Shown here: piece by piece, positions 17,883 through 30,573 of the stretch
Layout: every line of letters begins with the position of its first letter
Position numbering within the stretch: position 1 is the stretch's first letter
Source: Bryobacteraceae bacterium CoA2 C42
Lineage (GTDB): Bacteria; Acidobacteriota; Terriglobia; Bryobacterales; Bryobacteraceae
DNA length: 48,896 bases
Assembly: GCA_019931245.1 (NCBI GenBank)
Contig: JAINDL010000093.1
Location: forward strand, 1-48,896
Direction: 5' to 3'
Notes under the pieces: generated by a model
Seen by the model: only the letters and a program-made list of their open reading frames with translations
Told to the model about the DNA's origin: nothing
Databases searched by the model: none
Translations under genes and position numbers: made by a program

Positions 17883-18125
17883 GGTCGTTATAGCAACTCC
17901 TGAAAGGCCGGGTAGTCTTTACGACCGACCGGAGGCAAATTCCTGGACGTGTCGCAGCCGGGATTGCGGAAGGGGTTTAAACGCGTCACAACTCTCCCTC
18001 TCTACGTCTACCATAGCGCCACCTATTCTGCAATATCGGCAAAAATTCCAGTTTGACAGGAATTTTTTCCTCCGAACGCGCTCGACGACGCCCTAGGCTG
18101 GAAAAACGCATAAACTGATTTGAGG
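17883..18125. other. Divergent intergenic region between the act-cox operon and the sensor kinase operon
   Basis: About 240 bases separate actA (minus) from the histidine kinase (plus), so both operons must start here. The part 18020-18075 is AT-richer than its surroundings. TTGACA occurs at 18053-18058 on the plus strand, but no matching -10 box follows at 16-18 bases. On the minus strand several TTGC-type hexamers lie near 18025-18045 without a good -10 partner. I see no riboswitch or strong terminator. Confidence 0.5.
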
Positions 18126-19628
18126 ATGAGTTCGGGCTGGAAAATTCGTTTTCCCGAGGTTCGCTCCCCCGGCTATCTGGGGCGGCGGTTCGGCAATCTG
18201 CAACTGCGCCTGAAGCTCATTCTCCTGCACAATCTCTTTTTTCTGGTACTATCTGGCGCCGTTTATTTTACCGTCTTCCCCTTACTGGAGCAACGGGTGC
18301 AGGACGATCTGGCCCGCGAGGTCGCCCTTTGCATGGTGTTGTTTGAGGCCGAGACCCTGTGGACGGGGCCGACGGCGACAGCAATTCTGCCGCGCTACGC
18401 CTTCCGGGAGGGCAGCGCCCAGGAACTGGAAATCTCCTCCGAATTGCGCCAGCGGCTGGACCGGCAGCCGGGAGTCAGCATCACCGGCTCGGCCGAAGCT
18501 GGCGCTCCGGCCGGCACAAGTGTTTATCGGCGATTACCCTCTCAAGAGATATATCGGAAAATCCGGATGCCGTATGCCTACTACGAACGTTCGGTCGACC
18601 GGGTCCGCGTTGCCCTCTTTACGGTGCTGGGCATCATCTACGTCCTCGCGATTGTGCTGCTCGAGTCGGTGATCATGCCGCTCTACGTTTACCGTCCCCT
18701 GCACGCCATGCTGAACGCCGACCTGGCATCGCAGACCGGCGACCGGGCCAACGAGATTATCCCGGCCGACTATATCCCGGGAGATGAGATCGGGCAGATC
18801 ATGCGCTCCCGGAATCGCACCGTGGCCGAGTTGCGGCGGCAGGAGGATGAGTTGGAGCATGCGCTCGACCGCCTCGAAAGTGCCAAACGGAAGATGGCCG
18901 ACCAGGACCGTCTGGTGAGCCTTGGCATGCTCAGCGCGGGCGTGGCCCACGAACTGAACACCCCGCTCGCCGTGCTGCAGGGCTCGATTGAGAAGCTGCT
19001 CGAAACGGTGCCGGACCCGCCCACCCGGGAGCGCCTCGGCCGGATGCAGCGGGTGGCCGCGCGCCTGAAGACGATCAGCGAAGGGCTGCTCGATTTCTCC
19101 CGGGTCCGCCGTGAACAGAAGCAGATTGTCCCGCTGCACGAACTCGTCGAAGAGGCCTGGGAGTTGGTCTCGCTCGACGAAAAGGCCGCGCAGACGATTT
19201 TTGACAACCGGACGGCGCTGGAGTGCCGGGTCTATGGCAACGCCGACCGGCTGATGCAGGTCTTCGTCAACCTGCTGCGCAACGCCCTGCAGGCGGTACC
19301 CGCGGGTGCGGGCCGGATTGCGGTGCACACCGCACTGGAGATCGACAACGCGGAACGGTGGTGGAGGATCGCGGTGGAGGATAACGGCCCGGGAATTCCG
19401 CCCGATGTGCTGCCGGATATCTTCGAGGCGTTCATCTCCACCAAGCTCGATGCCAAGGGAACGGGCCTGGGCCTGACCGTCTCGGAGGGCATTATTCAGC
19501 AGCATGGCGGCAGCATCAGCGCTGCCAACCGGCCTGGCGGGGGTGCCCGCCTTGAAATGCGCCTGCCGGAGGCGCCTGTCACCGTGCCGGCCGAAACCAT
19601 GGAAGGAGGCAGCGTCTATGCCCGTTGA
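18126..19628 (+). CDS. Membrane sensor histidine kinase
   Basis: About 500 residues. Two membrane helices (about 29-54 and 161-188) flank a periplasmic sensor of roughly 105 residues without a recognised fold. A HAMP-like linker and a coiled coil (RRQEDELEHALDRLESAKRK) lead to the HisKA domain with the phospho-acceptor His in SAGVAHELNTPLAV (about residue 275). The HATPase domain shows the N box (VFVNLLRNALQAV), G1 (DNGPGIPP) and G2 (GTGLGLTVSEG, then QQHGG). It autophosphorylates and passes phosphate to the regulator encoded next, whose gene overlaps it by 11 bases. ATG at 18126 or TTG at 18120 are both possible starts; the only GAGG lies too close to the ATG to help. Confidence 0.93.
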   Translation: MSSGWKIRFPEVRSPGYLGRRFGNLQLRLKLILLHNLFFLVLSGAVYFTVFPLLEQRVQDDLAREVALCMVLFEAETLWTGPTATAILPRYAFREGSAQELEISSELRQRLDRQPGVSITGSAEAGAPAGTSVYRRLPSQEIYRKIRMPYAYYERSVDRVRVALFTVLGIIYVLAIVLLESVIMPLYVYRPLHAMLNADLASQTGDRANEIIPADYIPGDEIGQIMRSRNRTVAELRRQEDELEHALDRLESAKRKMADQDRLVSLGMLSAGVAHELNTPLAVLQGSIEKLLETVPDPPTRERLGRMQRVAARLKTISEGLLDFSRVRREQKQIVPLHELVEEAWELVSLDEKAAQTIFDNRTALECRVYGNADRLMQVFVNLLRNALQAVPAGAGRIAVHTALEIDNAERWWRIAVEDNGPGIPPDVLPDIFEAFISTKLDAKGTGLGLTVSEGIIQQHGGSISAANRPGGGARLEMRLPEAPVTVPAETMEGGSVYAR

Positions 19629-20247
19629 GGCTCCGGGCCCCGACCTCAAGATTGAGATCGCCATCCTGGACGACGATCTCGACTTTCGCAACTACATGGA
19701 GGATTTCCTGGCCGACGAGGGGATCTACAACGTCCGCCTGTTCTCTCATCCGGAGGAGCTGTACGCCGCCAACGAGCAGCAACTGGCCGACATCGTCCTG
19801 CTCGACATGAAGATGGGCGACTTTCAGGGTGACCAGGTGCTTGAACACCTGCATACGCGCTGGCCCGGGCTCTGCGTGATCGTGGTCACCGGCTACCCTT
19901 CGCTCGAAGACATGCGGCTGACCTTCAAGATGAACGTGTTCGACTACCTGTCGAAACCGTTCTCGCTGGCGCAGCTGCGGCAGACGCTCAAGAACGCCAT
20001 TGAAACCTTCGGCCTCGGCAAGACGCCGCAGGACCGGCTGCGCGAGCGGCTCGGGCACCGCATCAAAGTCCTCCGCGTCGAGCGCGACTGGTCCCTCAAA
20101 GACCTGGCCGCCTCCACAAAACTGAGCGTGTCGCAGATCAGCGCCATTGAGCGCGGCACGCATCTGCCGAGCATGGAGAGCCTGCTGGCCATCTCGCGGG
20201 CCTTTGACAAGAAACCGTCTGAACTCCTGGAAGCGATCGACTTTTGA
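19618..20247 (+). CDS. Response regulator with C-terminal XRE-type helix-turn-helix
   Basis: 209 residues. The receiver domain (about 11-128) has the acidic pair DDD at 18-20, phospho-acceptor D63 in VLLDMKMGD, T91 in VVTGYPS and K113 in YLSKPFS. The C-terminal domain (about 145-205) is an XRE/Cro-type helix-turn-helix: HRIKVLRVERDWSLKDLA, then TKLSVSQISAIERG. This pairing is uncommon; most regulators of this type carry winged-helix, LuxR or Fis domains. The ATG at 19618 has AAGGAGG nine bases upstream and overlaps the kinase gene by 11 bases. It probably binds DNA near its own operon or the receptor gene that starts on its stop codon. Confidence 0.93.
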   Translation: MPVEAPGPDLKIEIAILDDDLDFRNYMEDFLADEGIYNVRLFSHPEELYAANEQQLADIVLLDMKMGDFQGDQVLEHLHTRWPGLCVIVVTGYPSLEDMRLTFKMNVFDYLSKPFSLAQLRQTLKNAIETFGLGKTPQDRLRERLGHRIKVLRVERDWSLKDLAASTKLSVSQISAIERGTHLPSMESLLAISRAFDKKPSELLEAIDF

Positions 20248-22742
20248 AATATCTTCTCACGCTGTTTCTCCCCTGCGTTTTCTGGGCGCAGAAGCCCGAG
20301 GCGGGCGATGCGCAAAAGCGCGTTGAACTGAATTTGCTCGGTAAAGAAGATGCGGCCAAAGGCGAAAGCCGCCGCAATGAGAACATTCAGTTCAATCTGG
20401 TGGACAACAACGCCCTGAAGGAGCTGAACGTCCGGCTGGGGGCGACGGCGACACTCGTCGAGGAGTTCCGGGCCGATCGCGGCTACTTCGGCGCCGAGTT
20501 CGGCACCCCGGCCCCGGGGCCGATTGCGCTTGCGGCGCAGCGCCGGGCCGGCTGGCATGGGAATCTCTTTGCCAACCATCAGAACAGCGTCTTTTCGGCG
20601 CGCGCCTTTTTCCAGGTGGGCGATGTGAAGCCGGCGCGGGAGAACCGTTACGGCTTCCAGACCGGCGGCAGCCCCTGGCGCGGTGGGTTCGTTTCGCTCC
20701 AGGGATCACAGGAGAAGCTGCGCGGACAAGTGAACGGCAACGTGCTGGTGCCCTACGCCGACGAGCGCACCGCGCGGGCCACGGACCCGGCAGTACGGGC
20801 GCTGGTGCAGCGCTACTTCGACGCCTTCGGCCCGGAGCTGCCGAACCGCGCCAACGGCACCCGCCAGTTGAACACCAACGCCCCGCAGCGCATCGACAGC
20901 AACGACGGCGCCATCCGTCTTGAACAGGACCTGACGGCGAAAGACCGGCTCTTCGCCCACTACCAGTACACGAGCCAGACCGTCGACGCCTTTCAGTTGA
21001 TCGCCGGGCAGAACCCGGATACGACCACGCGCTCCCACCGGGCGCGCCTGACGTGGAACCGGGGCGGCAAACTGCTCGTGACCACCAGCTTCGACCGCAT
21101 CGGCTCGCTGCTCGTGCCGGAGCCGAACGCCGTGGGCCCGATGATCTCCACCGCCGGGCTGACCACGCTGGGGCCGCTCGGCGCCATCCCGATCGACCGG
21201 GCGCAAAACACTTTCCGGCAGGAGGCGCAGTACGCCGCTACTTACGGACGGCACACCCTCAGCCTGGGCGGCGGGCTCACGCGCCGGCAGTTCAACGGCC
21301 AGGAGACGGACTCGCACCGCGGCTACCTCTCGTTCTCGAACGACTTCGGGCGGACGGGGATTGAGAATATGCGGCTCGGCACGCCGTCGCAGTATCTGGT
21401 GGCAGTGGGCGATATCCACCGCGGCTTCCGGCAGACGCTGGGCGTGCTGCACGCGCAGGACTCCTGGAAGGTCAACACCAATCTCACGCTCCAGTTGGGC
21501 CTGCGTTGGGAGATGGTGGGCCGCCCCACGGAGGTCAACCGGCGCAACGAAATTCCCTACGACGCGGACTGGAACAACGTGGCGCCGCGCGCGGGCTTTG
21601 CCTGGCGGCTGCCGAAGGGCGCCGGGGTGCTGCGCGGGGCCGCCGGGGTTCACTTCGGCGAGATTCTGCCCGTCTCCTACTCGCAGATCCGCTTCTCGCC
21701 GCCGCTGAGCGTCAAGTTGGTGATCCTGGCCCCCAGCCTGCTCAATCCGCTGGCGGGCAGCGGCGTTGCGCCCAAGGGCAACCTGTATTTGATTGACCGC
21801 GAGATGGCGACGCCCTACCACTACCAGTACAACTTCAGCTGGGAGCGGGCGCTTGGCGCGGGATGGAGGGTGCAGGCCGGCTACGCTGGCAGCCGCGCGC
21901 ATAAGCTGCCGATCATGTGGTACACCAACCGCGCCCACCCGGCGCCCGGCATTCCGCTCACCACGGCGACGATCAACGAACGGCGCCCGATTGCCGAGCT
22001 GGCCGATGTCCGCCTCGTGCTGAACGGTTCGCGCGGCTACTTCGACGCCGGACGGCTCACCGTGGTCGCCCCGCGGGTCAAGCGTTTCACCGTCGACGCC
22101 GCCTACTGGTTCAGCAAGGCGCTCGACCTCGGCGCCGACTACACCAACACGGCCTACGACGCCGACTCGCGCCTGTCCCGCAGCCAGAGCGAGTACGAAA
22201 CGCACAGCGACCGGAAGGGCCGCAGCCAGTTCGACCAGCCCCACGCCTTCCTGGCCCGGGTGAGCTACGACCTGCCCAGGGGCTGGAGCCTCAGCACCGT
22301 GGCGCTGCTCAAGCAGGGGACGCCGTTCAACCTGACCACCCTCGACGGACCCGGCTTCGGCAACGTTGACGGCAACGGCGGCGACCGACCCAACCTGCTT
22401 GACCCCTCGATTCTCGGCCGCAGCTACGGCAACCCGGATACGTCGGTGGCGCGCCTGCCGCGGACGGCCTTCCGCTACATCGACGCGGGCGCGGAGACGG
22501 GCAACCTGGGGGCGAACGTCTTTCGCAAGGGAGCGATCCGCAACGTCAACGCGGCCCTCGCCAAGAGCTGGCAGTTGCCCAAAGACATGAAGCTGCTGGT
22601 CCGGGCCGAGTCGATCAACCTGCTGAACACGCCGCAGTTTGCCGAACCCGGCAGCATCCTGGGCACCCCGGAGTTCGGCTTTATCACGAACACGCTGAAC
22701 GATGGCCGGACGTTTCGGTTTAACTTAGGGCTGCAGTGGTAG
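20244..22742 (+). CDS. TonB-dependent-receptor-like outer membrane protein, co-encoded with a two-component system
   Basis: 832 residues. A signal peptide (KYLLTLFLPCVFWAQ) is followed by a short N-terminal region (FRADRGYFGAEFG, matching the plug region of Oar-like receptors) and a long beta-barrel typical of Acidobacteria: LTAKDRLFAHYQYTSQ, GLRWEMVGRPTEVN, WNNVAPRAGFAWRLP, YQYNFSWERALG, GYAGSRAHKLP, LLNTPQFAEPG and a C-terminal FNLGLQW with the terminal aromatic residue of barrel proteins. It lacks the carboxypeptidase-regulatory-like domain and most of the plug usual in the family, so it may be a specialised porin-like or signalling form. The start is TTG at 20244, overlapping the regulator's TGA as TTGA. 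It converges on the next gene with an 18-base overlap at 22725-22742. Confidence 0.88.
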   Translation: MKYLLTLFLPCVFWAQKPEAGDAQKRVELNLLGKEDAAKGESRRNENIQFNLVDNNALKELNVRLGATATLVEEFRADRGYFGAEFGTPAPGPIALAAQRRAGWHGNLFANHQNSVFSARAFFQVGDVKPARENRYGFQTGGSPWRGGFVSLQGSQEKLRGQVNGNVLVPYADERTARATDPAVRALVQRYFDAFGPELPNRANGTRQLNTNAPQRIDSNDGAIRLEQDLTAKDRLFAHYQYTSQTVDAFQLIAGQNPDTTTRSHRARLTWNRGGKLLVTTSFDRIGSLLVPEPNAVGPMISTAGLTTLGPLGAIPIDRAQNTFRQEAQYAATYGRHTLSLGGGLTRRQFNGQETDSHRGYLSFSNDFGRTGIENMRLGTPSQYLVAVGDIHRGFRQTLGVLHAQDSWKVNTNLTLQLGLRWEMVGRPTEVNRRNEIPYDADWNNVAPRAGFAWRLPKGAGVLRGAAGVHFGEILPVSYSQIRFSPPLSVKLVILAPSLLNPLAGSGVAPKGNLYLIDREMATPYHYQYNFSWERALGAGWRVQAGYAGSRAHKLPIMWYTNRAHPAPGIPLTTATINERRPIAELADVRLVLNGSRGYFDAGRLTVVAPRVKRFTVDAAYWFSKALDLGADYTNTAYDADSRLSRSQSEYETHSDRKGRSQFDQPHAFLARVSYDLPRGWSLSTVALLKQGTPFNLTTLDGPGFGNVDGNGGDRPNLLDPSILGRSYGNPDTSVARLPRTAFRYIDAGAETGNLGANVFRKGAIRNVNAALAKSWQLPKDMKLLVRAESINLLNTPQFAEPGSILGTPEFGFITNTLNDGRTFRFNLGLQW

Positions 22743-25400
22743 CAGGCCGATCTCGCGCAGCCAGGCGAAGCTGTCCGTGAGAGCGCGGTCGATCTCGGCG
22801 GGCGTGGCCGTGTAGCCGGGGACGACGAAGGCGTGCTGGGAGCCGGGATAGAGAATCACCTTCGACCGCCGGTGCGCCCGCGCGAAGCGCTCGGACTCGG
22901 TAAAGGGCACGACGGTATCGTTGCGGCCGTGCAGCAGTAGGGCGGGCGGCGTCCGGGCGTCGATGGCAAACAGCGGCGAAAGGCGGCGGGCTTCGGCCGG
23001 GGACGCCGTGCGGTCCACCCACTTGCCGGTGAGATCGGGGACGGGATTAAAGGCCACGATGGCGTTGGCGCGCTCGCGGGTCACGGTTCCGAGCGCCAGC
23101 GCCAGGTGGCCTCCGGCGCTGTCTCCGGCGGCGACGATGCGCTGCGGGTCCACGCCCAACTCGGCCGCGTTCTTGCGGATCCAGACGAGGGCGGCTTCCA
23201 CGTCTTCGACGGCCGGGGCCACCGAGCCGAGGCGGTACTGCGCCGTAAAGCCGATCGCCCCCTGCGCGGCGCTGTACTCGGCCGCGGGCAGGAACATCTC
23301 CGGGCGGCCGCCGGTCCAGCCGCCGCCGTGAATCCAGAGCACGGCGGGCTTCGGCGCCGCGCCGCGGCGGCCGACCATCGTCAGCTTCAGACCGGGCTTG
23401 TACTCGAACGTCTGCGCCTTCTGCATCTCCCAGGGATCGGCGGCGAGGCCGTTCTGATCCCACACGACGCGACCGGCGCGGAGGGTGAGTTCGCATTGGA
23501 GCAACTGCGTGCCGCTGATCTTCGACCCGCCCACATCGAGGAAGCCGTACTGGCCTTTGTCGAGCCGGAGCAGCGCGACATCGGCTTCGGCGCCGGGCGT
23601 CAGGTGACCAAGCGCGGGGCGGCGGATCGCCTGCGCCGGGGCCCAGGTGGAGGCGCGGATGACGTCGACGAGCGGCATGTTCAGGTTGAGAAACTTCGAC
23701 ATGGTGGCGAGCATGTTCTTCATGCCGCCGTTGGCGCTGCCGACGTGGAGGTCGGTGGAGATCGTGTCGGGCGCGAAGCCCTGGCGCATGGCGGGAACGG
23801 CCCATTGAAACAGCAGCGAGCCCGAGCCGTGGCCCACGTCGAAGAGAATGCCGCGTTCGCGCGCTGCGCGGTAGTGGGGCCGCAGCTTGCCGTCGTGATC
23901 GAGTACGGGATCAAAGGGCCGGTACATGTGCGTGTAGATATCGCCGGGGCGGAGCTTATCGAGGAACAGATCGCGGTGCGGCCGTTCGATGTGGATGACG
24001 CCGAAGTCGACCATCACGGGAAGCTTGGCGAGGGCGGCGGCCTGCACGGCGCGGTCGACGGCAAACCAGTCGGGAGCCATCCAGTGGGCGGTCTTGATGC
24101 CGACGATCAGGTCCGGGTTGGCGGCGGCCATGCGGGCGGCCTCGGCCGGATCGAAGTCGGCCGGGTCCTGCTCATTGGCACCGCCCATGCCGCCGGCGAC
24201 GATGTTGAGAAAGGCCAGCACGCGGGTGGCGGCGGAGCGGATGAGCCGGTCGCGGAAGTCCGGGAAGTTGCGCCAACCGGAGCTGCCGGCATCGACCAGG
24301 GTGGTGACGCCGGCGCGGAAGCTGTGCATGTCGGCCGGGACGGATTGATCGCCGCCGGCGAGCACCTGCCCGTTGGGGCCGGTATAGACGTGGGCGTGCA
24401 GGTCGATGAGGCCGGGGACGACGTAGAGGCCGCGGGCTTCGACCACCCGTTTGGCTTGGGCGCGCGGGATATCGGCGGCGATGGCGGCGATTCGGCCGTT
24501 GTGGATGGCGACGTCGCGGACGGCGTTGAGCTGGTTTTTCGGATCGATGACGGTGCCGCCTTTGAGCAGCAGGTCATAAGCGGGTTCGGCGCCGGTATCG
24601 AAGACGGCCAGCACGGGGAGATGGTCGCTGGGGTAGCGGCCGGCGTTGTGGCGGGTGATGGCATCGACGCGCTTGACCTTCCATTGGGGGGCGCGGAAGA
24701 GGATCCAGTCGATGCGATTGGGGCCGACGGTTCCTTTGAAGCCGTGGAAGGTGCCTTCGGGGCCGCTGGTGGCGGCGGCGACGGACTTGGCATCGGTGAG
24801 GGTGGCGGTGAGGACGCGATAGGCCTCGCTGCCGGGGGCGGTGTTGAAATCGCCGGTGAGGACGAAGGGGGAGGCCAGGCCGAGGCGCGAGGCGATGAGC
24901 TTGGCCGAGGCGACGCGGGCCGCTTCATCCTGCTGGCCGCGGTGGGCGAAGTGGGTGTTGTAGTACGTGAACTTCTGGCGGGTTGCGAGGTCGGTGAAGA
25001 TGGCCCAGGAGACCATGCGCGGCAGCGACATGTTCCAGGAACTGGAGCCGGGGACCTCGGGCGTCTCTGACAGCCAGAAGTTGCCCGAGTCTTCGAGGCG
25101 CAGGCGCGAGGTTTTGTAGAAGACGCCCATGTGCTCGTCCTCTTTGTTGCCGCGGCGGCTGAGGCCGAACCAGGCGTAGCCCGGGAGCTTTTCGACGATG
25201 TACTGGCCCTGGGAGTAGAAGAGTTCCTGCGTGCCCATGACATCGGGAGCGGCTTCGCGGATGGTGTCGACAAGGAGGTCGCGCCGGTTCTCCCAGATAT
25301 CCGGGCCATCGCCGGGATTGGGGTAGCGCACGTTGAAGGTCATCACGCGCAGCTCGGCGGCGAGCAGCGGCAGGGCGGCGAACAGAAGCAGGAAACGCAT
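22725..25400 (-). CDS. Three-domain hydrolase fusion: EEP phosphodiesterase-like, amidohydrolase, alpha/beta hydrolase
   Basis: 891 residues in one uninterrupted frame. After a signal peptide (MRFLLLFAALPLLAA) residues 17-268 are an endonuclease/exonuclease/phosphatase-type domain with E59 (GTQE), NTH at 148-150, GDFN at 183-186, RID at 229-231 and SDH at 258-260. Residues 275-655 are an amidohydrolase with HAH at 335-337, K436 (GIKTAH, probable carboxylated Lys), H491, H524 and D550 (STDLH), close to the amidohydrolase/deacetylase group. Residues 667-890 are an alpha/beta hydrolase with HGGGW at 691, GDSAGG around S761, D828 and H856. All three active sites look intact. It is last in the operon, 11 bases after the dehydrogenase. 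ATG 25400 was chosen for the signal peptide; the open frame upstream is unrelated. Substrate unknown. Confidence 0.88.
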   Translation of the reverse strand: MRFLLLFAALPLLAAELRVMTFNVRYPNPGDGPDIWENRRDLLVDTIREAAPDVMGTQELFYSQGQYIVEKLPGYAWFGLSRRGNKEDEHMGVFYKTSRLRLEDSGNFWLSETPEVPGSSSWNMSLPRMVSWAIFTDLATRQKFTYYNTHFAHRGQQDEAARVASAKLIASRLGLASPFVLTGDFNTAPGSEAYRVLTATLTDAKSVAAATSGPEGTFHGFKGTVGPNRIDWILFRAPQWKVKRVDAITRHNAGRYPSDHLPVLAVFDTGAEPAYDLLLKGGTVIDPKNQLNAVRDVAIHNGRIAAIAADIPRAQAKRVVEARGLYVVPGLIDLHAHVYTGPNGQVLAGGDQSVPADMHSFRAGVTTLVDAGSSGWRNFPDFRDRLIRSAATRVLAFLNIVAGGMGGANEQDPADFDPAEAARMAAANPDLIVGIKTAHWMAPDWFAVDRAVQAAALAKLPVMVDFGVIHIERPHRDLFLDKLRPGDIYTHMYRPFDPVLDHDGKLRPHYRAARERGILFDVGHGSGSLLFQWAVPAMRQGFAPDTISTDLHVGSANGGMKNMLATMSKFLNLNMPLVDVIRASTWAPAQAIRRPALGHLTPGAEADVALLRLDKGQYGFLDVGGSKISGTQLLQCELTLRAGRVVWDQNGLAADPWEMQKAQTFEYKPGLKLTMVGRRGAAPKPAVLWIHGGGWTGGRPEMFLPAAEYSAAQGAIGFTAQYRLGSVAPAVEDVEAALVWIRKNAAELGVDPQRIVAAGDSAGGHLALALGTVTRERANAIVAFNPVPDLTGKWVDRTASPAEARRLSPLFAIDARTPPALLLHGRNDTVVPFTESERFARAHRRSKVILYPGSQHAFVVPGYTATPAEIDRALTDSFAWLREIGLLPLQP

Positions 25401-25411
25401 AGGAGGAAAAA

Positions 25412-26113
25412 TTATTCTCGGCCGGGGAGCGGGAGTACGGCGCCGGTGATTTCGGCGCCGGCATCGCTCGATAGCCAGACCAGGAGGCTGGCGACGTTGG
25501 CGGGCTGCACCCAGCGGGTGGAGTCGTAGTCGGGCATGGCGGTGCGGTTGGCGTGGGTGTCCATGGTGCCGGGCGCGACGATGTTGGCGCGAATGCGGGC
25601 GTCGCGGTTTTCGACGGCGATGGTTTTGATGAGCGAAATCAGCGCGGCTTTGGCGGCGGCGTAGGCGCCGAGGGCCGGCACCGCTTCGAGGGCTGCCGGG
25701 CTGCCGATGGCCAGGAACGCTCCCCGTTTGGCGGCGCGCATGACGGGCAGCACGGCGCGGGCCAGATGGATGGCCGGGCGGAGATTGACGGCGAACATCT
25801 TGTCCCACACTTCGTCCGTCGTCTCTTCGAGGCGCAGTCCGCCGGCGAAGCCGCCCACGAGGTGGACCACCGCGTCGATGCGCCCGTGCAGCAGCATCGT
25901 ATCTTTGACGAGGTCTTCGACCGCGGCGAAATCTTCAAGGGCGACGGCGACGTGGGTGAGGGCCGGGTGCTCCGGGCTCTTGGAGCGCGGCACGCGATCG
26001 ACCCCAACCACGCGGGCGCCGGCTTCAAGAAATGCTTTGGTCACCGGGATGCCGAGGCCGCCGCTGGCGCCGGTGATGATGACGACCTTACCGTCGAGGT
26101 TGAGAGAGAGCAT
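25412..26113 (-). CDS. Short-chain dehydrogenase/reductase
   Basis: 233 residues. Classical SDR: cofactor motif TGASGGLG at 14-21, a D in VVGVDR that would bind the adenosine ribose of NAD(H), HLVGG in place of NNAG, N in MFAVNLRP, catalytic S in AIGSPAALE and the YAAAK pair (Tyr and Lys). The C-terminal VAPGTMDTHANR resembles the substrate loop. It reduces or oxidises an alcohol/ketone; the substrate cannot be read from sequence. It lies between sulfatase (13-base gap) and the hydrolase fusion (11-base gap), so it is very probably part of the same catabolic operon. Unlike its neighbours it has no export signal and acts in the cytoplasm. Confidence 0.94.
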   Translation of the reverse strand: MLSLNLDGKVVIITGASGGLGIPVTKAFLEAGARVVGVDRVPRSKSPEHPALTHVAVALEDFAAVEDLVKDTMLLHGRIDAVVHLVGGFAGGLRLEETTDEVWDKMFAVNLRPAIHLARAVLPVMRAAKRGAFLAIGSPAALEAVPALGAYAAAKAALISLIKTIAVENRDARIRANIVAPGTMDTHANRTAMPDYDSTRWVQPANVASLLVWLSSDAGAEITGAVLPLPGRE

Positions 26114-26126
26114 AGCGTTCGAACTC

Positions 26127-27770
26127 CTAGGTTACCTGCTTGATCTCGACGTACTGCACGCCGAGCTCTTCGCCGTTGATCCGCAGCACGGGTTCGAGAC
26201 GCCCCGGACCCACGGGCAGGCGCAGGCCGGAGAGGCGGACCGTGCGGGCGCCGGCGGCGAAGGAGGCGGATTGCTCGAGGGTGCCGAGTTTCAAGACCGC
26301 CGTGCCGGCCGCGGCAGCGGGGGCAAAGAGCAGGTCGACATCGTAGGAGGCCGCGCGCAGCACTTCGACCTCCCAATAGCCGATGCCCTTGGCCTCCCAA
26401 CTGGCGCGGGGCCCGCGCCAATCCTGCCGCGTGAGCAGCGTCGGGTTCTCGCCGGGATAGCCGATGGCGAGGCGGGGCGGGGCGTAGCCGCCGCGCGAGG
26501 CCGCTACGCTGCGGAACCAGGCTTCGGTCTCGCCCCGCAGGCGGGCCACCACGGCGGGATGCTGCGCGGCGACGTTGTTGGCTTCGGCCGGGTCGGCGTC
26601 CATGTCGTAGAGTTCGACGCCGTTGACGAGTTTCCAGCGCTGCGTGCGGACGGCATGGGAGCGGAACAGTTCGGGCGCGTCGCCGCGGTGCCACTGCGTG
26701 TGGATGCTGCGGTCCTTCCAGCCGGCGGACTTGCCGTCGAGCAGCGGCAGCAGGCTGCGGCCGTCGAGCGGCACTTTGGGCAGCGGGACGCCGGCGGCGG
26801 CGAGCAGGGTGGGCAGCAGGTCGAGGTGGGAGGCGATGCGATCGATCTTCAGCCCGGACTTAACGCGGGCGGGCCATTGCAGGAAGCAGGGTACGCGGAT
26901 GCCGCCCTGATAGACGGTAGTCTTCAGGCCGCGCATGCCGCCGTTGAAGCGGGGCTGCTGGGGGCCGTTATCGCTGAGGAAGACGACGATGGTGTTGTCG
27001 CGCAGTTGGAGCCGCGTCAGCTGTTCCTGCAGCTTCCCGATGTTCTCGTCGACGTTCTGGAGCATGCCGTAGATCTTGGCCGTGACGTCATCGAGGCCCT
27101 TGGCTTTGTAGGGCTGACTGTACTTTTCGTCGATCTGCAGCGGGGTGTGCGGGGCGTTGGTGGGGAGGTAGATGAAGAATGGCTTCGTTTTGTTGTTTTC
27201 GATGAACTGCATCGTCTCGCGGAAGAAGATATCGGTGCAGTAGCCGGCGGCCTTCTCGTATTTGCCGTTGCGGCGGAGGACGGGATTGAAGTAAGACTGG
27301 CCGGGCGGCGGGTCGCCGGGCTGGGCGAGGCCGCCGCCGTTGATGACGAGGGCCTCGGCGAATCCCTGGTCGCCGGGGCGGAGGGGGTAGTTGTCGCCGA
27401 GGTGCCATTTCCCGAAGATTGCCGTGCGATAGCCGGCGGACTGGAGCGCTTCGGCGATGGTGACCTCTTTCGTGTCCATGAGGGCGCGGCCGAGGTAGGT
27501 GTCGACGACGCCGGTGCGATAGTTGTAGCGGCCGGTGAGCAGTCCGGCGCGGGTGGGGGCGCAGACGGGGCAGACCTGGAACTGGGTGAACTGCGCGCCC
27601 TGGTTGGCGATGGCGTCCATGTGGGGCGTGGCGAGGTCGCGGTTGCCGTGGAGGGAGAGATCGCCGTAGCCTTGGTCATCGGTGATGATGACGATGATGT
27701 TGGGCCGGGAGCGGGGGGCGGCGGCCGCGCCCAAAGAGGCGGCGGCGAGGAATTGGCGGCGATTCAGCAT
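26127..27770 (-). CDS. Tat-exported type I sulfatase
   Basis: 547 residues. Tat signal NRRQFLAAASLGAAAA, then the sulfatase fold with metal site DDQGYGD at 31-37, the formylglycine signature CAPTR with C70 as the residue to be oxidised, GKWHLG, a TNAPHTP block and FLSDNGP. The C-terminal 90 residues (YWEVEVLRAASYDVDLLF onward) form an extra beta-rich module seen in some arylsulfatase A-like enzymes. It should release sulfate from a carbohydrate or aryl sulfate ester in the periplasm. No formylglycine-generating or anaerobic maturase gene is in the window. It follows the DUF6454 gene by 15 bases and precedes the dehydrogenase by 13. Confidence 0.94.
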   Translation of the reverse strand: MLNRRQFLAAASLGAAAAPRSRPNIIVIITDDQGYGDLSLHGNRDLATPHMDAIANQGAQFTQFQVCPVCAPTRAGLLTGRYNYRTGVVDTYLGRALMDTKEVTIAEALQSAGYRTAIFGKWHLGDNYPLRPGDQGFAEALVINGGGLAQPGDPPPGQSYFNPVLRRNGKYEKAAGYCTDIFFRETMQFIENNKTKPFFIYLPTNAPHTPLQIDEKYSQPYKAKGLDDVTAKIYGMLQNVDENIGKLQEQLTRLQLRDNTIVVFLSDNGPQQPRFNGGMRGLKTTVYQGGIRVPCFLQWPARVKSGLKIDRIASHLDLLPTLLAAAGVPLPKVPLDGRSLLPLLDGKSAGWKDRSIHTQWHRGDAPELFRSHAVRTQRWKLVNGVELYDMDADPAEANNVAAQHPAVVARLRGETEAWFRSVAASRGGYAPPRLAIGYPGENPTLLTRQDWRGPRASWEAKGIGYWEVEVLRAASYDVDLLFAPAAAAGTAVLKLGTLEQSASFAAGARTVRLSGLRLPVGPGRLEPVLRINGEELGVQYVEIKQVT

Positions 27771-27785
27771 GGCCTCGCCAGCATA

Positions 27786-28490
27786 TCAAGGCAGGCGGTA
27801 GCGGAACAGTCGGCTGGGATCGTCCTCGGGGAGGAGATAGAGAACGCCATCGCGGAGGGCCATGCCCTCGTTAGAGAAGCGGACGCCGCGGTCGGTGAGG
27901 CCCGTGGTGATGGACTTTTCAACGGCCAGGGTTTCCGGGTCGAGCCACTCGATGGCCCCGGCCGTGCGGCTCTTGACGCCGTTGCCGACGAGGCGGCCGC
28001 CGGTGGCTTTGAGATCCTGGAAGCCGGTGCCGGTGGGGTTGGGCCGCTGGTCGAGCAGGGTTCCGTCGGGGCGCCAGCGGTAGAGCAGGCGCGCATCCCA
28101 GTTGCCGCCCCAGACTACGCCGTTGGCGATGGCCACGCAGCCGATGTGATCCGGCACGGCGAACTGCGCTTCGAGCGCGAGCGTGATTTTGTTGCGCTTC
28201 TGCACCCAGGCGCTCGACTCCCGGCGATACTCGGCAACGGGTACCCAGAGCGAATCGCCGGCCAGTTGCATGCCGCCGGGGTGGTAGCGTTCGCCGTCCT
28301 GCAGTTCGACGGTCGAGAGGCGCTCGCCGGTCTTCCAGTTGAACCGGGAGAGGTAGCCTTGGTGGGTCGCCTTCTCGACAGCGGAGACCCAGAGGAAGTC
28401 GCCTTCGACATCGATGCCCTGGACATGGTGGGTGGGGCCGGCGAGGTTGGTGATGCCGAGCAGGGTGAGCGAAGCGAGTTCAGCGAGCAC
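27786..28490 (-). CDS. DUF6454-like beta-propeller-type protein
   Basis: 234 residues. Repeated beta motifs such as HHVQGIDVEGDFLWVSAV, RYHPGGMQLAGDSLWVPVAEY, HIGCVAIANGVVWGGNWDARLLYRW and NEGMALRDGVLYLLPEDDPSRLFRY point to a propeller of the DUF6454 kind. Its function is unknown; several members sit in carbohydrate or sulfatase loci. The start is GTG at 28490, sharing one base with the antiporter stop (TAG). The first residues (LAELASLTLLGIT) are mildly hydrophobic, so export is possible but not clear. Position in the operon suggests a binding or auxiliary role with the sulfatase. Confidence 0.8.
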   Translation of the reverse strand: MLAELASLTLLGITNLAGPTHHVQGIDVEGDFLWVSAVEKATHQGYLSRFNWKTGERLSTVELQDGERYHPGGMQLAGDSLWVPVAEYRRESSAWVQKRNKITLALEAQFAVPDHIGCVAIANGVVWGGNWDARLLYRWRPDGTLLDQRPNPTGTGFQDLKATGGRLVGNGVKSRTAGAIEWLDPETLAVEKSITTGLTDRGVRFSNEGMALRDGVLYLLPEDDPSRLFRYRLP

Positions 28491-29686
28491 TATTCAATTC
28501 TAATCGGCGACTCGTCGGGGTCCTCCGGCATCTGCGCGAGCGACCGGAAGGTCAGGGCGAGCAGGACCGGAGCGACGACCGTCGTCAGGACGGCCATGAC
28601 GACCACGACGCCGTAAGTCGCCTTGCTGACAATGCCCATCGCGGCGCCCAACTGCGCCACGACCATACCGACTTCACCGCGCGGCACCATGCCGGCGCCG
28701 ATGCGGCGCGCATCCGGCCAGCCGAGCGACAGGGCGCCGAGGCCGCAGCCGAGGAGCTTCGACACAATGGCGGCCACGGTGATGACACCGGCCAGGGTCA
28801 GCGTGCGGGGATCCCGCAGAACGTTGACGTCCAGCGCGAGGCCAATGCCGGCGAGGAAGAACGGCACAAGCAGTTCGGTAACTCCTTGCGCCAGATCCTG
28901 CACGCGATGCGAGACCGATTCCGCGAGCGCCACGCCGGCCAGGAACGCTCCGATGATGGCCGCCACGCCGGCATAGCTGGCAAAGACGGCCAGCGCGAAC
29001 AGAAGAATCATCGCGAGCGAAAACTGCGACTCGCCGCCGCGCAGGCGCCGGTCGATACCGGGCAGCACACGGCCCATGGTCCGGCTGCCGAAGCTCAGCA
29101 CAAAGAGAGTAAAGCCGATGGAGAGGCCGGCGGTGGTGGTCAATTGCAGGACGTCGAAAGTGCCCCGCGCCATGCTCGAAACGATCGCCAGAACGATAAG
29201 GCCGAGGATGTCGTCGATCACGGCGGCGGCCAGAATGATGCGGCTGGCCCGCACGTTGAGCAGACCCTTGGCGGCGAGTACCTGGGCGGTAATGCCGACG
29301 GAGGTCGCTACCATCGCGGCGCCGACAAAGAGCGCCTCGATCTGGTTGGAACCCGTGTAGATATAAATCGCATAGCCCATGGCAAAGGGCAGCAACACCC
29401 CCAGCAACGCCACCAGCGAGGCCACGCGGCCCACTTGAAACAGGTCCGAAGCCTTCACCTCAAGGCCCACGCGGAAGAGCAGAAACATGACGCCGAGGTC
29501 AGAGAACTGGGTGATCTGGCCCGGCTCTACCCAATTCAGAACGCTGGCGCCGAGCAGCACCCCGGCCAGAATGTCGCCGACGATGCTGGGCAGGGCGAGT
29601 CGTTCGGAGATCTCGCCGAGGATTTTCGCCGTGCCGAAGACGAGGAGCATCGCCAGCGGCAGTTGGGAGCCGGCGTGCTCAGTCAT
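28490..29686 (-). CDS. CPA2-family cation/proton antiporter
   Basis: 398 residues with about twelve membrane helices. KefB/NapA-type features: ALPSIVGDILAGVLLG near the start, FRVGLEVK, MVATSVGITAQVL and the ion-binding Asp pair D158-D159 in AAAVIDDILGL, then PFFLAGIGL and GMVPRGEVGMVVA near the end. It exchanges Na+ or K+ for H+ across the inner membrane. There is no RCK/TrkA domain, so regulation by nucleotides is not expected. I chose the ATG at 29686, which overlaps the isomerase stop as ATGA; the open frame 27 codons upstream is Arg-rich and unlike the family. Its place in a catabolic operon is odd and may reflect ion release or a coupled transport need. Confidence 0.93.
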   Translation of the reverse strand: MTEHAGSQLPLAMLLVFGTAKILGEISERLALPSIVGDILAGVLLGASVLNWVEPGQITQFSDLGVMFLLFRVGLEVKASDLFQVGRVASLVALLGVLLPFAMGYAIYIYTGSNQIEALFVGAAMVATSVGITAQVLAAKGLLNVRASRIILAAAVIDDILGLIVLAIVSSMARGTFDVLQLTTTAGLSIGFTLFVLSFGSRTMGRVLPGIDRRLRGGESQFSLAMILLFALAVFASYAGVAAIIGAFLAGVALAESVSHRVQDLAQGVTELLVPFFLAGIGLALDVNVLRDPRTLTLAGVITVAAIVSKLLGCGLGALSLGWPDARRIGAGMVPRGEVGMVVAQLGAAMGIVSKATYGVVVVMAVLTTVVAPVLLALTFRSLAQMPEDPDESPIRIE

Positions 29687-30573
29687 TGAGCGCGCATCCA
29701 GGCGACAAAGGCACGGGCGTAGCGGTCCAGGTTGTCTTCTGTGCCGCCGCCGAGCAGCGGTGAACACATCTCATAAGCCACGCCCCCAGTGTACCCGGCC
29801 TGGACGGCGGCGCCGAAAAACGCCCGGTAGTCGATGAAGCCTTCGCCGAACGGCACGGCCTGCACGTAGGGGGTGGCCGGGACGTAGTTGACGAGCGCCG
29901 GCTCATAGCGATGGCGGGGGCGGCGGACGTAGTCGGCGACGGTGGTGTGGGCCATCCAGGGCGCGAGCGCCGTGGCCGCGGCGGCGAGGTCATCGCCGTG
30001 CAGGGCGGGAGCCCAGGCGTCGAAGCCGGCCTTCAGGTTTGGGTGGTTGACCTCGGCCAGCAGATCGCGAAAGCTCTCCCAGCCGGCGGCGACATCGTGG
30101 TGGTTCTGCAGCAGGAGCGTGACGCCGAGGCGTCCGGCGCGGTGGGCGCATTCGCTGAGGGCATCGGCAATCATCCGCCATTGGGCGGAAAAGGAGGCGG
30201 CGCGATGTTCGTAGCCCGTAAAGATGCGAACGGCGGGGGCGCCGAGATCGGCGCCGAGCTGCGAGAGCGCCTCGACGTAGTGAATCTGCATCTCGCGCTG
30301 GGGGATCTCGGCGTGTTCGAGGTCGGCGGTGAAGTTCGTGTAACCGGCCAGCACGTTGTGACGAAGGCCGGCGGCGGCCAAATGGTCGCGCAGCTGCCGC
30401 CGGCGCGCCGCGTCCCAGTCGAGCGGACTGAGGTGGGGCCGCTTGGCCATCAGCATCACACCGTCAAAACAAAAAGCCGCGGCCTTGTCGGCGACCTGCT
30501 CGAGCGACAGGGCCGCCTGTCCCCAGGAGCCCGAGTAACTGACCGAATGGAGAAGAAGAGGCAGGGTGTGCAT
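29683..30573 (-). CDS. Sugar phosphate isomerase/epimerase-type TIM barrel
   Basis: 296 residues of the xylose isomerase-like TIM barrel family. Visible blocks are FCFDGVMLMAKRPHLSPLDW, NVLAGYTNF, QIHYVEALSQLGADLGAPAVRIFTGYE, LGVTLLLQNHHDV (metal-site region), LKAGFDAWAP, HTTVADYVR, GEGFIDYRAFF and GGVAYEMCSPLLGG. Residues E, D and H in these blocks would form a divalent metal site. It probably isomerises or epimerises a sugar or sugar-derived acid. It is the first gene of the six-gene minus-strand operon and its ATG lies 13 bases from the palindrome shared with the divergent GntR gene. No ribosome-binding site is seen upstream of the ATG, so the message may be leaderless. Confidence 0.9.
   Translation of the reverse strand: MHTLPLLLHSVSYSGSWGQAALSLEQVADKAAAFCFDGVMLMAKRPHLSPLDWDAARRRQLRDHLAAAGLRHNVLAGYTNFTADLEHAEIPQREMQIHYVEALSQLGADLGAPAVRIFTGYEHRAASFSAQWRMIADALSECAHRAGRLGVTLLLQNHHDVAAGWESFRDLLAEVNHPNLKAGFDAWAPALHGDDLAAAATALAPWMAHTTVADYVRRPRHRYEPALVNYVPATPYVQAVPFGEGFIDYRAFFGAAVQAGYTGGVAYEMCSPLLGGGTEDNLDRYARAFVAWMRAQ

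Follow-up and report, generated by a model that had tools for sequence, protein, structure and literature searches.

A clade-specific gene fusion places EEP, amidohydrolase and esterase domains in one probably exported chain

Introduction

Domain fusions can show which enzymes work together, and a gene in an acidobacterial genome raises that question for three hydrolases at once: is a chain that joins an EEP (endonuclease/exonuclease/phosphatase) domain, an amidohydrolase and an alpha/beta hydrolase real, and what might the joining achieve? The gene lies in a 48,896-nt stretch of DNA, here called the window (contig JAINDL010000093.1, one contig of a 237-contig genome), whose positions serve as coordinates unless a locus is named. 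An earlier note had proposed three active domains behind a single signal peptide, working in sequence on one substrate carrying a phosphodiester, an amide or cyclic amide and an ester. G numbers denote genomes compared, and L numbers denote loci fetched from them.

Results

Domain searches against Pfam and NCBIfam found all three hydrolase domains in the single open frame, as first described. At its 3′ end the fusion shares 18 bp with the end of a convergent beta-barrel gene; coordinates are collected in Table 1.

Table 1. Features of the fusion gene, its neighborhood and related loci
Feature	Position	Strand	Evidence
Three-domain fusion gene, 891 aa	22725..25400	-	Single frame (from the ATG at 25400 to a stop codon whose last base is 22725), Pfam, NCBIfam, intact orthologues
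Signal-peptide-like N-terminus, residues 1-15	25356..25400	-	Sequence; seven copies compared, dN/dS 0.083
EEP domain, residues about 16-267	24600..25355	-	PF03372; PDB 3g6s, 3mpr, 4c1r
Linker 1, residues 268-274 (DTGAEPA)	24579..24599	-	Seven-copy alignment, length invariant; stops of stand-alone EEP genes
Amidohydrolase/deacetylase-type domain, residues about 275-658, Asp465 at strand-5 metal position	23427..24578	-	NF006689; PDB 8je0, 8wzy, 2ogj, 2ics
Linker 2, residues 659-665	23406..23426	-	Seven-copy alignment; signal peptide of stand-alone esterase (L113) reaches up to here
Alpha/beta hydrolase domain (BD-FAE/TtEst-like), residues about 666-891, Ser761	22728..23405	-	PF20434; PDB 5ao9, 7bfn
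SDR oxidoreductase, ending 11 bp ahead of the fusion start	25412..26113	-	PF00106; synteny
Sulfatase	26127..27770	-	PF00884; synteny
DUF6454 protein	27786..28490	-	PF20055; synteny
CPA2-type cation/proton antiporter	28490..29767	-	PF00999; synteny
Xylose-isomerase-like TIM barrel protein	29683..30573	-	PF01261; synteny
Convergent outer-membrane beta-barrel protein (TonB-dependent-receptor-like)	20244..22742	+	PF25183; synteny
Amidohydro_3-EEP fusion, 837 residues, exported-looking, G606	L152 148-2658		Pfam
ChaN-EEP fusion, exported-looking, G636	L153 651-2471		Pfam
Decayed fusion, G012	L107 11050-12440		Start runs into esterase remnants with stops

The fusion was searched for in 41 genomes and then in 257 genomes of the order. 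Seven full-length copies were recovered, that of the window and six others that are 82 to 97% identical to it, all 890 to 891 residues long and in one frame; seven of the genus's 19 genomes thus have it intact, as do seven of the order's 257. A contig scan that gave 14 loci includes the same six further copies. In the order search, the seven copies scored 1,715 to 2,045 bits, the next match listed (533 bits) covered the amidohydrolase only, and none was listed between. The fusion is kept under purifying selection in these seven genomes, with dN/dS values of 0.090, 0.105 and 0.100 for the EEP, amidohydrolase and esterase domains (dS 0.6 to 0.9).

Another explanation would be that separate genes were run together by a frameshift or by faulty assembly. 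All copies come from multi-contig assemblies, the named ones titled MAG. However, seven assemblies give the same frame, under purifying selection, and the six beyond the window's, at the identities stated above, come from several projects by record title. We therefore reject this explanation, which is extremely improbable, and the fusion is almost certainly a single real chain.

Beyond the genus, a phylum sample chosen without close relatives contained the fusion in 1 of 396 genomes, the window's own, at E ≤ 1e-155, and none of 622 plasmid records with a match had one place covering 80% of it. No relative with the three-domain order was thus found outside the clade at the thresholds used; at most three candidates per genome were scored in the order search and at most two in the phylum search, so that diverged or two-domain fusions could escape. 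The architecture is not named among the literature matches listed, which came mostly from papers free of subscription and included PMC10564751. A combined query for amidohydrolase, "endonuclease exonuclease phosphatase" and "trifunctional" in the same, mostly subscription-free, scope returned no matches. The three-domain order is real, and as an architecture it is new and clade-specific, kept by selection and built from known parts.

The chain starts with MRFLLLFAALPLLAA, which by eye resembles a signal peptide and is nearly identical across the seven copies; the conserved start is hydrophobic, 15 residues long, and ends in LAA. These observations support a single export-signal-like start ahead of the three domains, and the protein is probably exported. 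Linker bounds were set from the termini of stand-alone relatives, which gives about seven residues each rather than the roughly 10 first proposed. Both are free of indels among the seven copies. Of the stretches compared, linker 1 shows the weakest conservation (dN/dS 0.226 over 7 residues), and the region around linker 2 (residues 653 to 672) has a dN/dS of 0.086. The contrast between linker 1 and the value of about 0.1 elsewhere would suit a polyprotein precursor that is cut into three enzymes after export, whereas the shortness and constant length of both linkers argue against it, and we regard such processing as very unlikely. Internal translation starts at the domain borders were rejected as well: no in-frame start preceded by AGGA, GGAG or GAGG occurs within residues 255 to 284 or 645 to 684 in any of the seven copies.

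The EEP domain is matched by PF03372 over residues 20 to 260 (68.1 bits against a cut-off of 24.5). N23, E59, H150, D184, N186, D231, D259 and H260, the Asn, Glu, His, Asp-Asn, Asp and Asp-His positions that we take to be the catalytic set, are invariant in all seven copies. Its closest solved relatives include 4c1r, which matches at E 1e-33 and was deposited as a mannosyl-6-phosphatase, an enzyme that frees phosphate from mannose-6-phosphate ends. The EEP domain is accordingly at least as likely to be a phosphomonoesterase as a phosphodiesterase, and the phosphodiester first proposed as its target is not supported as stated; judged from these relatives, the domain more plausibly removes phosphate than acts as a nuclease or phosphodiesterase. 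At the other end of the chain, PF20434 (BD-FAE) matches residues 681 to 775 at 94.8 bits (cut-off 26.8). The HGGG motif at 691 to 694 and S761, D828 and H856, presumably the catalytic positions, are invariant in 7/7 copies, making up a complete Ser-Asp-His triad. Leaving aside a remnant in G012, the other best esterase matches in the genus are about 36 to 43% identical.

The central domain departs from expectation at one position. PF07969 (residues 318 to 355) and PF01979 (538 to 613) both match above cut-off, and NF006689 (PRK09237) spans residues 274 to 651 at 409.1 bits, against an equivalog cut-off of 371. Six amidohydrolase positions (HxH, Lys, His, His and Asp) are, we assume, metal ligands, and five of them are canonical here (H335, H337, K436, H491 and D550). 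Residue 465 (24006-24008) is Asp; 8wzy, 2ogj and 2ics align His at this place, and the nearest His of 8je0 aligns two residues beyond it. Compared with the binuclear ligand set of Atu3266, which we take to be 2ogj, the domain has Asp465 for the strand-5 His and the other five ligands in place. The claim that catalytic residues are in place in all three domains is supported, as three conserved active-site sets, with this one correction in the amidohydrolase. Atu3266, a member of the PRK09237/COG3964-like group, is an ester hydrolase. With the domain placed in that group and one metal ligand replaced by Asp, action on an amide or cyclic amide is not supported in the form proposed.

Counting the fused copies, Asp is found at this position in 40 of 41 distinct sequences from the loci fetched by that point, and the remaining one has a gap (duplicates and matches spanning under 250 query residues were left out). 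A Granulicella plasmid homologue also has Asp, and homologues from Thermomicrobium, Mesorhizobium and Chelativorans have His. The residue thus marks an acidobacterial subfamily rather than decay, and, as it stands where His is expected, the metal site may be non-canonical. One domain, most likely this one, might now be a binding or structural part and no longer a hydrolase, as Asp in place of the metal-ligand His that three of four solved relatives align could indicate; yet the recurrence of the same Asp in those 40 sequences and on the plasmid, the five remaining metal positions and an unremarkable dN/dS of 0.105 make this quite unlikely. We give slightly better than even chances that all three domains are active.

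The fused amidohydrolase and esterase belong to families with many paralogues per genome, and the amidohydrolase family is strongly expanded in the order. Tandem arrays of five amidohydrolase paralogues occur at G036:C1 21340-27716, G037:C26 41695-48179 and G038:C74 61775-68143. An acidobacterial PRK09237-type branch, which includes the L163 homologue, has Asp for the strand-5 His and, just after it, a few additional residues. Genes for PLP-dependent enzymes adjoin the amidohydrolase in a recurring pairing (L125 4071-6516, L110 2043-4933 and L163 2268-5251); by eye those of L125 and L110 are SelA-like, and that of L163 is annotated as a PLP-dependent transferase.

Gene order around the fusion (TIM barrel, CPA2 antiporter, DUF6454, sulfatase, SDR, fusion and convergent beta-barrel) is kept in 7/7 genomes. 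Elsewhere in the window (18120-20247), a sensor kinase gene is followed by one for a response regulator with an HTH_3/Cro-type output domain, an uncommon pairing.

Separate genes for the domains do exist in relatives, with stops at the domain borders, which the earlier note had considered a potential refutation. As the fusion is under purifying selection in seven genomes, these relatives reveal its origin rather than an artefact. Stand-alone EEP genes at 65 to 70% identity occur in 7 of 19 genus genomes (G003, G004, G005, G007, G014, G015 and G018). Five genomes have neither these nor the fusion: G002 and G008 gave no match, G011 partial ones (45 to 49%) and G013 one at 44%, and G012 has a remnant of the fusion instead of any EEP match. 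Fused and stand-alone EEP at 65% identity or more are mutually exclusive in the genus; weaker EEP paralogues accompany the fusion in G009 (46% and 37%), G001 (27%) and G017 (32%). Four of the seven stand-alone loci (L098, L101, L102 and L104) have a sulfatase-SDR pair resembling that of the window, some 0.2 to 4 kb away, and EEP was therefore probably near the pair before fusion. No sulfatase or SDR relative of this pair was found near the stand-alone EEP on the 13 and 17 kb fetched of L099 and L100, and L103 is a 4.3-kb contig. Hydroxyproline-catabolism-like genes, recognized by eye (racemase/epimerase-like and FAD oxidoreductase), stand beside the stand-alone EEP in L098, L100 and L101, as does a DapA-like gene, also named by eye, in L100 and L101.

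All seven stand-alone EEP genes end 2 residues past position 267. Stand-alone amidohydrolases have a signal-peptide-like stretch directly before the start of the fused domain in 10/10 places looked at, and also in L108, and the one stand-alone esterase checked (L113) has its signal peptide where the fusion has linker 2. Each fused domain is thus complete, with the inner signals missing. Long amidohydrolase frames were considered as further fusions and rejected, since the signal-like start directly ahead in those 10 places gives them the look of frame run-on.

In the stretches fetched (blastp E ≤ 1e-5), the nearest stand-alone relatives of the amidohydrolase and the esterase neighbor neither each other nor EEP. 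At the same threshold, no amidohydrolase-esterase operon was found around the amidohydrolases of L108-L110, L115, L116, L122-L131, L135 and L136 or the esterases of L113, L114 and L132-L134; no pre-fusion operon thus joins all three in these stretches. In an amidohydrolase tree of 37 sequences, midpoint-rooted and drawn without supports (duplicates, matches spanning under 330 and matches over 75% identical left out), the fused domain clusters with its counterparts in G177 and G046, which belong to a different genus in the same family. In G177, 12 bp separate the sister gene from a sulfatase-like one (28% identical to the window's), a weak hint at chemistry shared with sulfated compounds; no sulfatase relative was found on the 17 kb fetched from G046.

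G012 keeps the gene order, but between its SDR and beta-barrel genes a signal-peptide-like start runs into stop-containing remnants of the linker and the esterase; the interval L107 11050-12440 also holds another open stretch behind the remnant. In a sulfatase and SDR tree of 12 genomes, G012 is the sister of fusion-bearing G006 with support 1.000. Gene order and this position lead us to infer that the fusion had already formed when G012 lost it, and its retention of the neighbors indicates that the fusion is dispensable. When the four genomes that have EEP separate serve as root, the other eight form one group, several of whose inner branches are weak (down to 0.165). A single origin of the fusion is probable, in an ancestor shared by these eight species, where it replaced the stand-alone EEP near the sulfatase-SDR pair; trees and gene order suggest that a resident EEP gene there would have been joined to an amidohydrolase and an esterase.

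EEP domains have been fused elsewhere in the phylum. An EEP relative at E ≤ 1e-15 occurs in 40 of the 396 sampled genomes, the window's own included. Five genomes with long EEP frames were fetched, four (L152-L155) were searched for domain bounds, and three were scanned with Pfam: two frames were other fusions, in G606 and G636, and the third was EEP alone. The family of G606 was covered with 12 genomes, and among the matches listed there, the one in G606 alone spans the two domains. Those of G659 and G620 run no further than the amidohydrolase, behind which a stop codon follows, and G656 has EEP alone at a contig edge. The ChaN domain of the G636 chain belongs to the Tiki superfamily (haem-binding uptake). 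Together with the window's, these two fusions indicate that EEP was fused repeatedly, twice with an amidohydrolase.

Discussion

Three domains acting in sequence on one substrate, as originally proposed, are not supported as stated. Our preferred reading, which we give about an even chance, is a tandem substituent remover: one probably exported chain combining a mannosyl-6-phosphatase-type EEP domain, a PRK09237/COG3964-like metallo-amidohydrolase and a serine esterase. The chain would work outside the cytoplasm, where EEP would take off phosphate and the amidohydrolase (probably deacylating) and esterase would take off acyl groups, perhaps alongside the neighboring sulfatase on decorated carbohydrate- or cyclitol-like compounds. 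Fusing may secure co-export and a 1:1:1 stoichiometry. That the three domains share one substrate class is a tentative suggestion, with somewhat less than an even chance.

The strongest rival is export coupling alone, in which the domains act on unrelated substrates and the fusion couples only the export and expression of three scavenging hydrolases and implies no pathway. The abundance of amidohydrolase and esterase paralogues per genome, the lack of a stand-alone amidohydrolase-esterase operon in the stretches fetched, the readiness of secreted EEP domains to fuse (with Amidohydro_3 and ChaN elsewhere in the phylum) and the loss of the fusion from G012 without its neighbors all speak for it. 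However, the fused EEP adjoins a sulfatase-SDR pair that is also near stand-alone EEP in 4/7 loci, in an order fixed in seven genomes, and EEP has been joined on a separate occasion to an amidohydrolase of another family, a hint of a functional link. We consider export coupling alone less likely than not.

A stronger version of the tandem remover, in which one decorated molecule moves processively between the three active sites, is unlikely. Its substrate could be, for example, a conjugate of a sugar or cyclitol that bears phosphate and acyl groups and has lost its sulfate to the neighboring sulfatase. If this were true, the acidobacterial amidohydrolases of the Asp type would form an enzyme class of their own, with a chemistry to match. 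In any case, the chain offers a concrete, expressible handle on the role of many acidobacterial hydrolase paralogues, and if no substrate is shared, it is still a clean example of signal-peptide loss and end-to-end gene fusion, with later decay in one species.

Each part resembles a known system. The EEP domain is like 3g6s, 3mpr and 4c1r over nearly its whole length (E 6e-38 to 1e-33) and has their catalytic motif positions; those chains, of 267 to 298 residues, are single-domain by length, whereas EEP here sits in a fusion. The esterase shares Ser-Asp-His and HGGGW with the BD-FAE/TtEst-type esterases 5ao9 and 7bfn (E 3.5e-30) but is without a signal peptide of its own. The PRK09237/COG3964-type structures 2ogj, 2ics, 8wzy and 8je0 are like the fused amidohydrolase at full length, with HxH, Lys, His and Asp present, and the fused domain differs from them in Asp465 on strand 5 and in being embedded in a larger chain. 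The Amidohydro_3-EEP protein of G606 is, like the window's fusion, an exported-looking chain of amidohydrolase and EEP, but it has the reverse order, a different amidohydrolase family and no esterase.
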